From assembly GCA_012523465.1 (NCBI GenBank), contig JAAYIK010000028.1, forward strand, positions 186,001 to 250,000: a stretch of 64,000 nt of DNA, given 5' to 3'. Below the pieces are notes generated by a model. The model ran no database searches and was not told the DNA's origin. It saw only the letters and a list, made by a program, of their open reading frames with translations. Shown piece after piece: positions 37,522 to 42,540 of this stretch. The stretch comes from Lysobacteraceae bacterium. GTDB lineage: Bacteria > Pseudomonadota > Gammaproteobacteria > Nitrococcales > AK92. Within the stretch, counting starts at the first letter, position 1. Each line of letters starts with the position of its first letter. A program made the translations under genes and the position numbers.

Positions 37522-37538
37522 TTGGCATCGTTCCTGCT
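37522..37538 (+). promoter_or_regulatory. sigma-54 (RpoN) promoter
   Basis: TTGGCATCGTTCCTGCT: -24 TTGGCA and -12 CTGCT with the correct 10-bp GG-to-GC spacing. It differs from the TTGGCACG-N4-TTGCT consensus mainly at positions 7-8 and 13. It lies about 90 bp before the repeat-protein ATG and matches the local sigma-54 regulator gene. Confidence 0.75.
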
Positions 37539-37627: not shown

Positions 37628-38212
37628 ATGAAGAAGACCATCGCAACCGCCATCAGCGCGCTCGGCCTCGTCCTGTCCGCCCAGGCCATGGCTGGTGACG
37701 ACGACATCATCTCGGTGCTGCCCATCGCCTCCAACGTGGCTCAGGGCCAGGCCACCGCCCATAGCCTGTCCCACAACGATGTCTTGTCGAACAACGACCT
37801 GCTGTCCCACAACGACATCCTCTCCAACAACGCCCTGTGGTCCAACAACACCGCCAATCTTCGCTCCGAGGCCACGGTGAAGGCCCAGGTTGCAGCCACC
37901 AATCTGGACGGCTCGGTGCGTGGCTCCACCGACGCCGGCAATGGTGGCGACGGCGGCAACGGGGTCGACGATTCGACGCTGGTTGGCGTTGGCGTGGGCC
38001 TGGGGCTGGGCCTGGGGCTGGGTGCCGGCGGGGCCGGCTTTGGCGGTTCCGGCGCGACCGGCGGCTCGGTGGGCACCACCACCACCAACTACATGCAGGA
38101 CCACACGATGACCAACGCCGTCGGCATCTTCCAGGTGGCCCAGAACGGCGGCATGAATGCCATGGCGCAGCAAGGCGTCACCGTCCAGGCCAACTTGAAC
38201 TTCAGCAAGTAA
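37628..38212 (+). CDS. secreted Asn/Gly-rich repeat protein, candidate fibre or amyloid subunit
   Basis: A 194-residue protein not recognised with certainty. It has a Sec signal (MKKTIATAISALGLVLSAQAM, cleavage about residue 22), then five tandem hexapeptides of pattern S[HN]N[DA][VLI][LW] at residues 48-77. A Gly/Val/Leu-rich stretch (about 118-146) follows, and the C-terminus reads GIFQVAQNGGMNAMAQQGVT. The Asn/Gln/Gly-rich, cysteine-free composition and QNxGxN pattern recall Fap and curli-type amyloid subunits (inference). GGAG precedes the ATG. It is first in a four-gene run behind the sigma-54 promoter and is followed by a strong hairpin that may raise its share of the transcript. Role proposed: major extracellular subunit. 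Confidence 0.72.
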   Translation: MKKTIATAISALGLVLSAQAMAGDDDIISVLPIASNVAQGQATAHSLSHNDVLSNNDLLSHNDILSNNALWSNNTANLRSEATVKAQVAATNLDGSVRGSTDAGNGGDGGNGVDDSTLVGVGVGLGLGLGLGAGGAGFGGSGATGGSVGTTTTNYMQDHTMTNAVGIFQVAQNGGMNAMAQQGVTVQANLNFSK

Positions 38213-38284: not shown

Positions 38285-38653
38285 ATGATGGAAGCACGAA
38301 CCAGGCTCTCGGTTTGCCGCCTCGGCACGGTCGTCGGCTTGCTGCTTGCGACCGCCGTTTACGCCGGCGAGGCGCCCGATGTGCTCGAGCTCGTTGGCCT
38401 GCAGGGTGACGTCAGCGAGCAGGAGCTGGACAGCACGCGCGGACGTCAGGACATCTTCAACGCCCAGATCAGCGAAATCAGCGAAAACGCCTACCTGAGC
38501 CATACCAGCGCCAATGGCGCCAGAACCGGCGACAACCTGATCAGCGGTGACGCGCTGTCCGGCCTTGCCGGCTTCTCCACGGTCATCCAGAACACTGGCA
38601 ACAACGTCATCATTCAGGATTCGCTGATCCTGAATGTCAGCGTACGCCAGTAA
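38285..38653 (+). CDS. small secreted protein with double-glycine-like motif, candidate minor fibre subunit
   Basis: A 122-residue protein with a Sec signal (cleavage after AVYA, residue 27) followed by VSEQELDSTRGR (43-54). That segment resembles the double-glycine leader consensus LSxxELxxIxGG, with Arg as the last residue. The C-terminal half (GFSTVIQNTGNNVIIQDSLI) is Asn/Gln-rich and beta-prone, similar in flavour to the first gene and to Fap minor subunits. No named family is recognised. The next gene encodes a C39-like peptidase, the enzyme class that cuts double-glycine leaders, so processing is plausible but unproven. Confidence 0.68.
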   Translation: MMEARTRLSVCRLGTVVGLLLATAVYAGEAPDVLELVGLQGDVSEQELDSTRGRQDIFNAQISEISENAYLSHTSANGARTGDNLISGDALSGLAGFSTVIQNTGNNVIIQDSLILNVSVRQ

Positions 38654-38672
38654 CCGCGCGGACGCGATCGCA

Positions 38673-39368
38673 ATGCTGCGCTGGCAACGCTGCCGCCTGG
38701 TCGCCGGCCTGCTCTGCTGGCTCACCATCGGCGCCGCGACGGCCAATCCGGCCATCCTGCCCGGCCTCGCCGACCATGTGACCATGCCGGTCACCAGCTT
38801 CGCCGAAGCCCGCTCGCGCGAGCTGATACGCCAGCAGTACGACTTCAGCTGCGGCGCGGCAGCCTTGGCCACGCTGCTGACCCACCATTACGACCATCCG
38901 GTCAGCGAACAGCAGGTGTTCAGCCGCATGTTCGAGCTGGGCGACCAGGAACGCATCCTCCAACAGGGCTTTTCCATGCTCGACATGAAGCTCTACCTGG
39001 AAAGCGCCGGCTTCACCGCCGGCGGCTACCGCATCGACCTGGCCAGGCTGGCGGAAATCGGCGTGCCAGCCATCGCGCTGCTGAACATCAACGGCTATCT
39101 GCACTTCGTCGTGATCAAGGGGGTGCGCGGCGACCGGGTGCTGATCGGCGATCCCGCGCTCGGCCTACGCACCGTCACCCGAGCCAGCTTCGAGGCGGGC
39201 TGGAACGGGATCTTCTTCCTGATCCGCAGCCACGCCAGCGTCGGCCGGCGGCATTTCAACCGGGACGAGGTTTGGGCCATGCTGGCACAGGCGCCGGTCG
39301 CGGACGCACTGGGCCGCGCCGACCTGGCCGGCTTTACCCTGCAGCTCGGTCTTCCGGGCTTGCGTTAG
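38673..39368 (+). CDS. exported C39-like cysteine peptidase (FapD-like)
   Basis: A 231-residue peptidase with a Sec signal (LVAGLLCWLTIGAATA, cleavage about residue 26) and no ABC or membrane domain. Catalytic residues fit the C39 fold: Cys60 in QQYDFSCGAAALATLL (with the oxyanion Gln), His144 in LHFVVIKG and Asp160 in LIGDPALG. C39 enzymes usually form the N-terminal domain of bacteriocin exporters; stand-alone secreted forms occur in the Fap amyloid system (FapD). Its targets may be the two neighbours with double-glycine-like motifs. The ATG at 38673 is preferred because it puts the signal peptide at the N-terminus; an ATG at 38634 overlapping the previous gene is possible. Confidence 0.85.
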   Translation: MLRWQRCRLVAGLLCWLTIGAATANPAILPGLADHVTMPVTSFAEARSRELIRQQYDFSCGAAALATLLTHHYDHPVSEQQVFSRMFELGDQERILQQGFSMLDMKLYLESAGFTAGGYRIDLARLAEIGVPAIALLNINGYLHFVVIKGVRGDRVLIGDPALGLRTVTRASFEAGWNGIFFLIRSHASVGRRHFNRDEVWAMLAQAPVADALGRADLAGFTLQLGLPGLR

Positions 39369-39383
39369 AGGAGAAATGCGAAC

Positions 39384-39848
39384 ATGGACAAGCTCGCTTT
39401 CCGTCTCCGCAGTGTCCTGGTCTGCGCGGCGCTGACGCTGGCAGCGGCTCTGCCGGCGCAGGCGGTGCAGGACTGGGAAAGCGTCGACGATGCCACGCTC
39501 AGTAGCCTGCGCGGTGGCTTCATCGACCGCCATGGGTTCCAGATCCACTTCCGGCTGGAAAACCTGGTCGCCATCGACGGCATGCTCAAGGTCCACAACC
39601 GGCTCGAGATCCCCTGGGGCGATTCGCGCCCGCAGGTCGAGCGCCTGGTCCAGGACACCGCCGACACCGGCGGGGTCAGGCTCACGCTGGCCAACCAGGG
39701 GCTGGCGACGCTGATCCAGAACACGCTCAACGACAAGTTCATCGATCACATGCGCATCATCAACGTGGAGCTGCGCAGCCCCGGCGGCCTGGCCGGCATC
39801 GGCGCGATCAGCCGCATCCAGGCGGGACTGATCTCCGCGCTGCGCTGA
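39384..39848 (+). CDS. secreted protein with double-glycine-like motif
   Basis: A 154-residue exported protein: Sec signal (cleavage after PAQA, residue 27), then VDDATLSSLRGGF with Gly44-Gly45, close to a double-glycine leader. The remaining 109 residues alternate polar and hydrophobic positions (FQIHFRLENLVAIDGMLKV; GLATLIQNTLNDKFIDHMRI), suggesting beta strands. No known family recognised. GAGGAGAAA lies upstream of the ATG. It is last in the sigma-54 operon and probably a chaperone, nucleator or minor subunit (inference). Confidence 0.68.
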   Translation: MDKLAFRLRSVLVCAALTLAAALPAQAVQDWESVDDATLSSLRGGFIDRHGFQIHFRLENLVAIDGMLKVHNRLEIPWGDSRPQVERLVQDTADTGGVRLTLANQGLATLIQNTLNDKFIDHMRIINVELRSPGGLAGIGAISRIQAGLISALR

Positions 39849-39899: not shown

Positions 39900-40931
39900 T
39901 CATTGGCGCCCCCACAGCACGAACGGCGAACGTAGTACCAACTGGATATCGGGCGCGTACTCGGTGACGCCCACCGCCAGCGCCAGGCTGACATTGTTGC
40001 CCGTCCCTACCCGGTGCGACAGGCCGAACAGCAGGGAACCGACCTGGAAGCGGCTGAACTGCGCATCCAGGCCAGGGTCGTGCTGATACTTGGTCTTGAA
40101 GACCACGCTGTGGTCGTAGCCCAGGCTGAAGGACATCCGCTCGTTGACGGCGAAGCCCATCCCGAAGCCGAAGCTCACCGCATCCCCCGGATCGACCCGG
40201 CCGTACTCGGCATTGACGCGACGGGACACGTTCCACAGGTAGGAGACATTGCCGAACAGCGCCACCGGGTCGGTCGGATAGATGAAGCTCAGCCCGGCCT
40301 GCACACCCCAGAACCCGGAGCCGGTGGGCTGCTCGCGAAAGATCTCGCCGATCGGGATCGGCGCGCCGGTGTCCTCGTCTTCGACGGTCAGCTCTTCTCG
40401 CGCCACCTCGAAGGGCCCCTCGCCGGTGCGGCTCTTGACCCGCAGGTTGACCACCGTGTACGGCCAGCCATTGCCGCCGTAGCTCAGCTGATAGCGCAAC
40501 GCAAGCTCGACGTCCCCCAGGCCATCACCGGATGAGTCGCGCACCAGATCGGTGGGCGAGCCCTTGAACAGCTCCCGCTCGCGAACGCTTTCCTCCTTGT
40601 AGACGAACGGCACCCGCAGCTCGGCTTCCAGTCGGCGCGTCAGGCCATAGCGCAGCGCAAAAGCGGCGGTCAGGGTATCCCGCTGCACCTCGCTGATGTT
40701 AATCAGCCCCACCAGCACCGCCGGCACCACCGTATAGCCCTCGACCGCCACCTGCATGTTGGACGAGTGGGTGTATTGCAGCGACGGCTCCAACACCAGC
40801 TGGCCGGCGGGTGTCAACACGCTGGGCTGATCGAAGATTTGGGCCGGCTCGGCCGGCGGCTGCTGCGCCAACGCGCTGCCGGCGACGGCGAGCAAACAAG
40901 AGGCGGTACGTCCCCAGGCGGAGTACTTCAT
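39900..40931 (-). CDS. outer-membrane beta-barrel protein, transporter-like
   Basis: A 343-residue protein with a signal peptide (cleavage after SALA, about residue 22) and a mature chain of alternating amphipathic strands typical of a barrel (LVLEPSLQYTHSSNMQVAVE, TLTAAFALRYGLTRRLEAEL, GFWGVQAGLSFIYP). It resembles the phenol-meta-pathway-type transporter family. FapF of the Fap system is also an export barrel, so this may be the export pore for the convergent operon. It lacks an obvious N-terminal coiled coil. AAGGAAG precedes the ATG; the gene is 57 bp after the sigma-54 regulator on the same strand. Confidence 0.8.
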   Translation of the reverse strand: MKYSAWGRTASCLLAVAGSALAQQPPAEPAQIFDQPSVLTPAGQLVLEPSLQYTHSSNMQVAVEGYTVVPAVLVGLINISEVQRDTLTAAFALRYGLTRRLEAELRVPFVYKEESVRERELFKGSPTDLVRDSSGDGLGDVELALRYQLSYGGNGWPYTVVNLRVKSRTGEGPFEVAREELTVEDEDTGAPIPIGEIFREQPTGSGFWGVQAGLSFIYPTDPVALFGNVSYLWNVSRRVNAEYGRVDPGDAVSFGFGMGFAVNERMSFSLGYDHSVVFKTKYQHDPGLDAQFSRFQVGSLLFGLSHRVGTGNNVSLALAVGVTEYAPDIQLVLRSPFVLWGRQ

Positions 40932-40988: not shown

Positions 40989-42347
40989 CTAGCGGGTCAA
41001 AGTGCTGCTGCCGGTCCGCACGATCACCGAGCCGGCGGGCGGGGCGTCCAGCGCGTACTTGCGCATTAGCCGGTACAGGGTGACGCGCGAGGTGCCGAGC
41101 TGGCTCGCTGCCTTGGAAACGTTGTAGCGGCAGGCCTGCAGTGCCGCCTCGACGGCCATCCGCTCGGCGTTTTCCCGCACCTCCACGAGGCTCAGCGGCG
41201 CGTCCTGGCTGTCACGCAGCCCCAGGTCGGCGGGCCGGATCAAGCGCCCCTCGCACATCACCATGGCGCGCCGGACCCGATTGATCAGCTCGCGCACGTT
41301 GCCGGGCCAGGTGTGCGCCTCCATCGCCGCGTAGGCCTCGCGGCTGAAGCCGCGCACCCCTGGCGCCTTGTCCTTGGCGTAGCGCTCGAAGAAATAATCG
41401 GCCAGCACCGCCACGTCGCCGGCGCGCGCGCGCAGCGGCGGCATGTCGAGGCGCAGCACGTTGAGGCGATAATACAAATCGGCACGGAAGCGACCTTCCG
41501 CCACCGCCAGCTCCAGATTGACGTGGGTGGCGGCAATCACGCGCACGTCCACCGGCACCGAGCCACTGCCGCCAAGCCGCTCGATGACACCTTCCTGCAG
41601 GAAACGCAGCAGGTTGGCCTGCAGCTCCAGATCCAGATCACCGATCTCATCAAGGAAGATGGTGCCGCCGTTGGCGGCCTCGATGCGGCCGATCTTGCGT
41701 CGTTGTGCGCCGGTGAAGGCGCCGCGCTCATAGCCGAACAGCTCCGACTGGATCAGGCTGGCCGGCAGGGCACCGCAGTTGACCGCCACAAACGGCCCGC
41801 CGCTGCGGCGGGAATTGTCGTGAATGGCCTGCGCGGCCAGTTCTTTGCCAGTGCCGCTCTCGCCTTGGATCAGCACCGGCGCCTCGACGTTGGCGATCTT
41901 GCCGATGGCGGCCATCAAGGCGTGCATAGCCCGGCTTCTGCCCACCATGCGGTGCTGCACCGGTGGACCGTGATCGCCGAAGGCTTCCCGCAGCGCGCTC
42001 ATGCCGAAGGCGTGGCCGATGACGGCATTGAGCCGCTCCCAATGGACGGGCAGGGTGTGGAAATCGACGCAGTAGCGCAGCACCAGCTGCGCCAGCTCAG
42101 GCTTGCCGAGATCCTCGGCGGGCATCAACGCAATCCACTCGATGGCGCCGCGGGAAAGGATCTGTTCCAGCTCCGACAGATGCCAGCGCCCGTCGGCCAG
42201 TTCCACCAGGCCGACCTGATACTCTTCGAGGCAAGGGAGGGAATCAGGTGTCGCCGTCCGGACGTTCCAGGCAGAAGCCAGTACCGCAAGCTGATCCCAG
42301 GCGCTACCCTGTGGAGACAGATAGAGGATTTTCCTTTTTTGCATCAT
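40989..42347 (-). CDS. sigma-54-dependent enhancer-binding transcriptional regulator
   Basis: A 452-residue bacterial enhancer-binding protein. The AAA+ domain has Walker A GESGTGKE (162-169), the sigma-54-contacting GAFTGA loop (209-214) and Walker B GTIFLDEIGDL. The C-terminus has a Fis-type HTH (NVSKAASQLGTSRVTLYRLM). The N-terminal domain (1-125) looks receiver-like but lacks a recognisable phospho-acceptor aspartate: the segment reads YQVGLVELADGRW. It may thus respond to a ligand, as VpsR and FleQ do with cyclic-di-GMP (inference). The start at 42347 is chosen by GGGAAG upstream. It probably activates the promoter at 37522-37538. Confidence 0.9.
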   Translation of the reverse strand: MMQKRKILYLSPQGSAWDQLAVLASAWNVRTATPDSLPCLEEYQVGLVELADGRWHLSELEQILSRGAIEWIALMPAEDLGKPELAQLVLRYCVDFHTLPVHWERLNAVIGHAFGMSALREAFGDHGPPVQHRMVGRSRAMHALMAAIGKIANVEAPVLIQGESGTGKELAAQAIHDNSRRSGGPFVAVNCGALPASLIQSELFGYERGAFTGAQRRKIGRIEAANGGTIFLDEIGDLDLELQANLLRFLQEGVIERLGGSGSVPVDVRVIAATHVNLELAVAEGRFRADLYYRLNVLRLDMPPLRARAGDVAVLADYFFERYAKDKAPGVRGFSREAYAAMEAHTWPGNVRELINRVRRAMVMCEGRLIRPADLGLRDSQDAPLSLVEVRENAERMAVEAALQACRYNVSKAASQLGTSRVTLYRLMRKYALDAPPAGSVIVRTGSSTLTR

Positions 42348-42520
42348 GCGATCTTCCCTACTACGCAAGACGCGGTCGGACGCAGGCGGGGTTGCGTCAA
42401 TGGCAGCCCTGCCAGCTGGTGCAAAAGCCTCGGCGGTTGTCGGAGATGAGGAGACTGTTATTCGCCTTGTTCTGGGAGCGGCGCCTCGGTAACCGCGTCG
42501 TGCCTTCCATGGCTTTCCCG

Positions 42521-42540
42521 GGCGATGCCGCGGCATCGCC
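42521..42540. promoter_or_regulatory. 20-bp perfect palindrome upstream of ubiD
   Basis: GGCGATGCCG followed by its exact reverse complement, ending 30 bp before the ubiD ATG in the region shared with the sigma-54 regulator gene. It could be an operator or a cruciform/hairpin; no regulator is identified. Confidence 0.45.

Follow-up and report, generated by a model that had tools for sequence, protein, structure and literature searches.

Two small exported proteins of a Lysobacteraceae bacterium, S1 and S2, are probably matured in two steps, Sec export being followed by a cut at a second leader behind the Sec signal, made by a periplasmic FapD-like C39 peptidase within a Fap/Fil-like export system; this reading draws on leader conservation among homologs and on a structure model. 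The genes lie at 37.6 to 42.5 kb of the window (the whole 64,000-nucleotide stretch of DNA analyzed here), in what is, judged from its sequence, a Fap/Fil-like functional-amyloid cassette and not a bacteriocin locus, because the nearest NCBIfam models are FapD and FilB for the peptidase and FapF and FilC for the barrel. A periplasmic C39 peptidase is already known; what appears to be new is the conserved post-Sec leader predicted in S1, S2, and FapE.

Results

The cassette runs in the order repeat protein, S1, C39 peptidase, and S2, followed on the opposite strand by a barrel and an activator:

37523-37537, + strand: sigma-54-type promoter-like site TGGCATCGTTCCTGC (consensus match only), ~105 bases 5' of the first gene
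37628-38212, + strand: Sec-exported protein in the large-subunit position, with LSHND/LSNND repeats and the C-terminal motif GIFQVAQNGGMNAMAQQGVTVQANLNF
38285-38653, + strand: S1, small Sec-exported protein of 122 aa with a predicted post-Sec leader
38411-38446, + strand: S1 leader motif VSEQELDSTRGR, aa 43-54
38673-39368, + strand: FapD-like periplasmic C39 peptidase, 231 aa (ORF opens at 38634)
39384-39848, + strand: S2, small Sec-exported FapE-like protein of 154 aa with a predicted post-Sec leader
39483-39518, + strand: S2 leader motif VDDATLSSLRGG, aa 34-45, then Phe
39900-40931, - strand: FapF-like barrel (NCBIfam FapF and FilC, both below cut-off)
40989-42536, - strand: VpsR-domain sigma-54 activator adjoining the cassette (Pfam VpsR, Sigma54_activat, and HTH_8)

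The peptidase matches PF03412 at 84 bits (cut-off, 22) with the Cys/His/Asp residues and the Gln intact. Its nearest NCBIfam models are FapD (E = 5.7e-48) and FilB (E = 1.5e-32), both below cut-off; with 163 bits against the >330 bits of the FapD equivalog (NF058616), it is homologous to FapD and is not filed as FapD itself. We preferred the start at 38673 over that at 38634 for its better signal peptide, and numbered from there the catalytic residues are Gln54, Cys60, His144, and Asp160, which bears out the first-pass annotation's secreted C39-like peptidase with intact Cys60/His144/Asp160 between two small exported proteins. All four residues are invariant in 81 homologs, partly by selection in the case of Cys and His, which lie within or beside the search patterns. 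Fold comparison aligned the peptidase part to the peptidase domains of PCAT1, ComA, and LahT (Z of 14 to 15). Of the relatives with a solved structure, LahT is the nearest in sequence (E = 8e-8), its Gln21, Cys27, His101, and Asp117 corresponding to the four residues in the window. Unlike a C39-ABC exporter, the protein (231 to 244 aa) consists of a Sec signal and a C39 domain only, and no other C39 domain in the host genome exceeds the Pfam cut-off. A C39-like match below the cut-off lies in an unclassified 731-aa ORF (L152; G000:C15:5233-5571), possibly a C39-like-domain ABC exporter.

We identified 80 FapD-like loci, by name from Gamma-, Beta-, and Alphaproteobacteria and relatives of Geotalea/Geomonas. 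Most keep the order of a large N/Q/S/T/G-rich Sec protein, S1, FapD-like peptidase, S2, and FapF-like protein, and S1 homologs lie 5' of fapD in about 70 of the 80; Sec signals were called by a simple hydrophobicity rule rather than a trained predictor, and the homologs are mutually related, so that these and the following counts are non-independent samples.

The 37628 protein resembles the large subunits of other loci only in its Gln/Asn C-terminal motif, GIFQVAQNGGMNAMAQQGVTVQANLNF, which is common to N/Q/S/T/G-rich proteins at the same place; the large proteins of other loci end in QNxGxxSLxQQSVNVQANL or similar. At 194 aa it is unusually short for its position (~240 to 1,100 aa elsewhere), and it carries LSHND/LSNND repeats (37750-37850). 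Neither this protein nor S1 has a Pfam match or a significant NCBIfam match, and amyloid formation by the large protein is inferred from its position and composition. A Fap system in the strict sense has FapB/FapC subunits with repeats, and none of the FapA, FapB, or FapC models matched in the cassette. The barrel scores 149.5 bits against NCBIfam FapF (E = 1.2e-43) and also matches FilC (E = 1.2e-17), both below cut-off; the FapF equivalog (NF058560) calls for >700 bits and an N-terminal coiled coil, which the barrel, encoded on the opposite strand, lacks, unlike Pseudomonas FapF.

The activator adjoining the cassette is its probable regulator. A similar sigma-54 activator was found in 52 of 82 loci, with a VpsR-like part in 40, and 25 of 74 loci have a sigma-54-like site 5' of the gene for the large subunit, compared with 4.0% of control windows. 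Together, the promoter-like site at 37523-37537 and the VpsR-domain activator at 40989-42536 suggest sigma-54 control of the cassette, perhaps linked to c-di-GMP.

The first-pass annotation had placed double-glycine-like motifs in both small exported proteins, and we recovered them there, at aa 43-54 of S1 and aa 34-45 of S2. The S2 Sec signal ends in LPAQA, about 18 aa before the end of the motif. Among 50 S2 homologs, Leu at -7 and Gly at -2 and -1 are invariant, Arg occupies -3 in 98% and Phe +1 in 90%, and the motif ends in RGG in 49 and KGG in one; position -4 is Leu, Met, Gln, or another residue. No columns of this divergent family are better conserved than those of the leader: in an alignment of 32 S2 proteins with a mean column identity of 22%, L39, G44, and G45 are invariant and R43 and F46 are conserved in at least 90%. 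The S1 Sec signal ends in AVYA, about 27 aa before the end of its motif. In an alignment of 72 S1 proteins built without regard to the motif, -12 is L/V/M/I/A, -7 is Leu/Met, and -2 is Gly/Ala in 72/72, with drift at -11 to -8 and -6 to -4; position -1 is Arg in 36, Gly in 23, Lys in 7, and Met in 4, and -4 is mixed. In 41 of the 72 S1 proteins, a matrix made from S2 alone gave a score above the 99% level of shuffles, at the expected place.

Hydrophobic residues at -12 and -7 and a small residue at -2 are the marks of a double-glycine leader, and both families have them, a few members with Ala at -12. Such leaders also have a hydrophobic -4 and Gly, Ala, or Ser at -1, and for these two positions the picture is mixed, with Gly always at -1 in S2: the predicted leader is relaxed, with -1 often Arg or Lys (in FapE and many S1 proteins) and -4 often polar, Gln, Ala, and Ser being frequent there, and the exact cut position is putative. 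The bond that we predict could be one residue off. In characterized C39 peptidases, the cut follows GG, GA, or GS. We read the motif as a FapD site because its conserved positions are those that matter for the characterized C39 peptidase LahT150, in which leader positions -12, -7, and -4 matter and -3, -5, and -8 do not (PMC6363468). The leader bound to LahT150 forms a two-turn helix (-11 to -4) and then extends into the cleft (PMC6363468).

The peptidase and S2 share one reading frame and were modeled with AlphaFold as a single chain, the peptidase stop being read as Gly. In this fused model, S2 residues 28-37 and 38-47 have pLDDT values of 88 and 91, compared with 54 and 67 for the flanking stretches, and S2 modeled alone reached 78 (31-40) and 60 (41-50); residues 36-41 form a helix, and bridge residues fall at 43 and 45-46. 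The model fits a leader in the peptidase groove, short of proof, as a single chain imposes a high local concentration and C39-leader complexes are in the AlphaFold training set.

The same 12-residue block is present in 24/24 FapE relatives, recovered by a FapE-model search across the order of a Marinobacter genome and the class of the window (seven lie above the NCBIfam FapE cut-off), where it ends in RGR or RGK with an aromatic residue next in most; a PLSDB tblastn search with a FapE query found no Pseudomonas, and the order-wide search was used instead. In Pseudomonas-type FapE the block follows immediately on the Sec site (VYA-SSGFKPIELKDSEMAELRGR-YVMPGR). S2 scores 12.5 bits (E = 0.059) against the FapE equivalog (NF058559, >250 bits), a match that covers the signal peptide and leader, and a profile-profile alignment of S2 with FapE across the leader block gave an E value of 5e-7. 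A fold search with the S2 model (pLDDT 69) returned no match (best E = 0.15). Conservation across homologs, the check proposed for the motif at the outset, thus extends over 50 S2 proteins, 72 S1 proteins, and these FapE relatives.

Leader-bearing Sec proteins recur at related loci. In 29 of 30 loci picked solely by the FapD profile, a leader-bearing Sec ORF adjoins the peptidase, and FilA of Acinetobacter carries MDDAALSAATGQ behind its Sec signal. In a Methylobacter MAG (L068), three small Sec proteins bearing LTETQMDNVSAGG, LSTTQMDGVNAGG, and LSLNEMDQVTAG precede a second C39 gene; the first two of these sequences come closer still to the textbook leader, which suggests that the arrangement is general. 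This second C39 cassette (L068:981-4588), with near-canonical double-glycine leaders on its three small proteins, also holds a Sec/TM C39 peptidase and a FapF-like protein and lies directly upstream of a Fap-like cassette. Other loci (L119:1178-1570, L117:3530-3868, and L120) encode small Sec proteins, placed where FapA would be or ahead of it, with the blocks LEDARLASIRGK-F, VSDSVLHGVNGR-G, and LGDADFARVSGG-V; because of these blocks, FapA-type proteins may be further substrates.

Around fapD, 127 of 314 Sec-like ORFs within 1 kb score above 12 bits, against 2 of 271 more than 2.5 kb away (P = 6e-38); the control was drawn from the locus flanks, and the contrast is partly circular, the combined scoring matrix being built from S1 and S2 themselves. 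The leader motif is absent from the 37628 protein, and 0 of 10 BLAST-matched homologs score as leader, a scoring of large subunits that shares this partial circularity. The S1 and S2 alignments and the S2-only test are free of it. The combined matrix also yields a few false matches inside FapD.

Discussion

In the maturation route that we propose, Sec would carry S1 and S2 across the inner membrane and their Sec signals would be removed, leaving the next 18 to 27 residues as a pro-leader whose last 12 residues read [LVIMA]xxxxLxxx[RST][GA][GRK]. In the periplasm, these 12 residues would lie as a short helix in the hydrophobic groove of the FapD-like C39 peptidase, and residues -3 to -1 would thread into its catalytic cleft, a shape in keeping with the model. 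FapD would cut after or beside the Gly-Gly/Gly-Arg pair, and the cut would free S1 and S2 for export via the FapF-like barrel or for joining the fiber. By homology, the FapD cut in Pseudomonas FapE would fall between LKDSEMAELRGR and Y, just behind the Sec site.

Sec export followed by periplasmic C39 maturation had been proposed in the first-pass annotation. Motif conservation supports this core idea; moving a C39 peptidase to the periplasm is not new, since a 2017 study placed FapD activity there and FapD is needed for secretion, its C38A variant abolishing that of FapC (PMC5557850). That study called the FapD target unclear and said that Fap proteins lack canonical C39 sequences, having considered GG and GA motifs in FapE and FapF (PMC5557850), and the target was still undetermined in a later paper (PMC6173800). 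FapE was also the sole Fap protein without N-terminal peptides in whole-cell mass spectrometry, peptides being absent for ~70 residues (PMC5557850), a gap that exceeds what a ~17-residue leader explains. Looking for C39 cleavage in the periplasm behind a Sec signal, our literature search turned up FapD alone, and no description of a conserved post-Sec leader in FapE or its relatives was found in the literature searched.

There is a modest chance that the motif is instead a docking signal for FapD or the FapF pore, bound uncut, with FapD cutting elsewhere, such as in the FapF linker, much as the C39-like domains of RTX exporters hold and do not cleave their substrates. The Arg/Lys at P1 and the polar -4 of many members would suit this reading, as would the existence of catalytically dead C39-like domains (cited in PMC5557850) and a similar block at the coiled-coil end of a subset of FapF (YQIDDLEQYRGG and others). 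Against it, the catalytic Gln, Cys, His, and Asp are invariant in the 81 homologs, the C38A change blocks secretion, and the block is missing from most FapF proteins, including that of the window. Because most FapF proteins lack it, FapF is not a general FapD substrate, and we rejected it as a general target. Where the block does occur (DLEQYRGG, ELEQHRGG, or LNAQRARG, ending the periplasmic coiled coil in FapF homologs of L005, L014, L025, L036, L030, L063, and L075), it is close to the place where Rouse et al. suspected FapD cleavage.

The bodies behind the leaders bear on two further points. The first-pass annotation had expected similarity to be lost downstream of the motif; on the contrary, S1 and S2 keep a common C-terminal 30-residue motif (hhalign 90%, E = 1.4e-6). 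We therefore rejected a variable cargo behind a constant leader, and S1 and S2 would be subunits or accessory proteins rather than bacteriocin-like cargo. The shared motif also means that the two leaders may lack independent origins. If S1 and S2 are distant paralogs, the block could be the conserved start of a mature FapE/S1 fold used in assembly, its leader likeness due to coincidence or common descent; we consider this improbable, since conservation falls on the leader-binding positions and not between them, the spacing is the C39 leader register, the stretch that precedes the beta domain otherwise differs in length among the proteins, and the same arrangement sits on different bodies, in FilA (MDDAALSAATGQ) and in L068 (LTETQMDNVSAGG and LSTTQMDGVNAGG).

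Three known systems come closest. As in the biofilm-amyloid Fap system of Pseudomonas (fapABCDEF), the window has a Sec-signal C39 peptidase, a FapF-type barrel, a FapE-type protein, and an amyloid-type large subunit, and a sigma-54-type activator adjoins related fap loci; it differs in that its proteins do not reach the equivalog cut-offs of FapD and FapF and match no FapA/FapB/FapC model, its order is large subunit-S1-D-S2 with an oppositely oriented FapF-like gene whose product has no coiled coil, and its S2 leader ends in Gly-Gly where that of FapE ends in Gly-Arg/Lys. With Fil of Acinetobacter (FilA-FilF) it shares a FilB-like C39 peptidase, a FilC-like barrel, and a leader block behind a Sec signal, whereas no counterparts of FilD-FilF were seen at the window and the FilA body is unlike S1 and S2. 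The leaders of PCAT1, ComA, and LahT have the same -12/-7/-2 spacing, C39 fold and catalytic residues, and helix-then-extended form; in the window, by contrast, the peptidase is free-standing and periplasmic with no ABC transporter, the leader follows a Sec signal, and among the related proteins P1 is often Arg/Lys and -4 often polar. That gene order and motif mark a system for a bacteriocin or a peptide signal, with the C39 step in the cytoplasm, as the likeness to class II bacteriocin leaders and the sub-cut-off C39 match in the 731-aa ORF elsewhere in the genome might suggest, is scarcely credible beside a cassette with no ABC exporter, with Sec signals on the peptidase and on both substrates, and with a FapF-like pore and an amyloid-type subunit as neighbors; we rejected this reading on the missing exporter and the Sec signals.

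It seems somewhat probable that Fap, Fil, and their relatives, a widespread class of Gram-negative systems for extracellular fibers, use a two-signal export code, in which Sec is followed by a C39 leader that FapD/FilB read in the periplasm, with FapE/S1-type proteins as substrates and a cut that gates FapF secretion; in FapE-type proteins that cut would fall between [LVI]xxxx[LM]xxxRG[GRK] and [FY]. The leader in FapE predicts a FapD cut site and offers a specific, cheap test of the FapD target, which comes down to one bond and a few point changes. More broadly, the finding suggests a use of double-glycine leaders beyond the cytoplasm, where they may give Sec substrates a second tag for sorting or activation.
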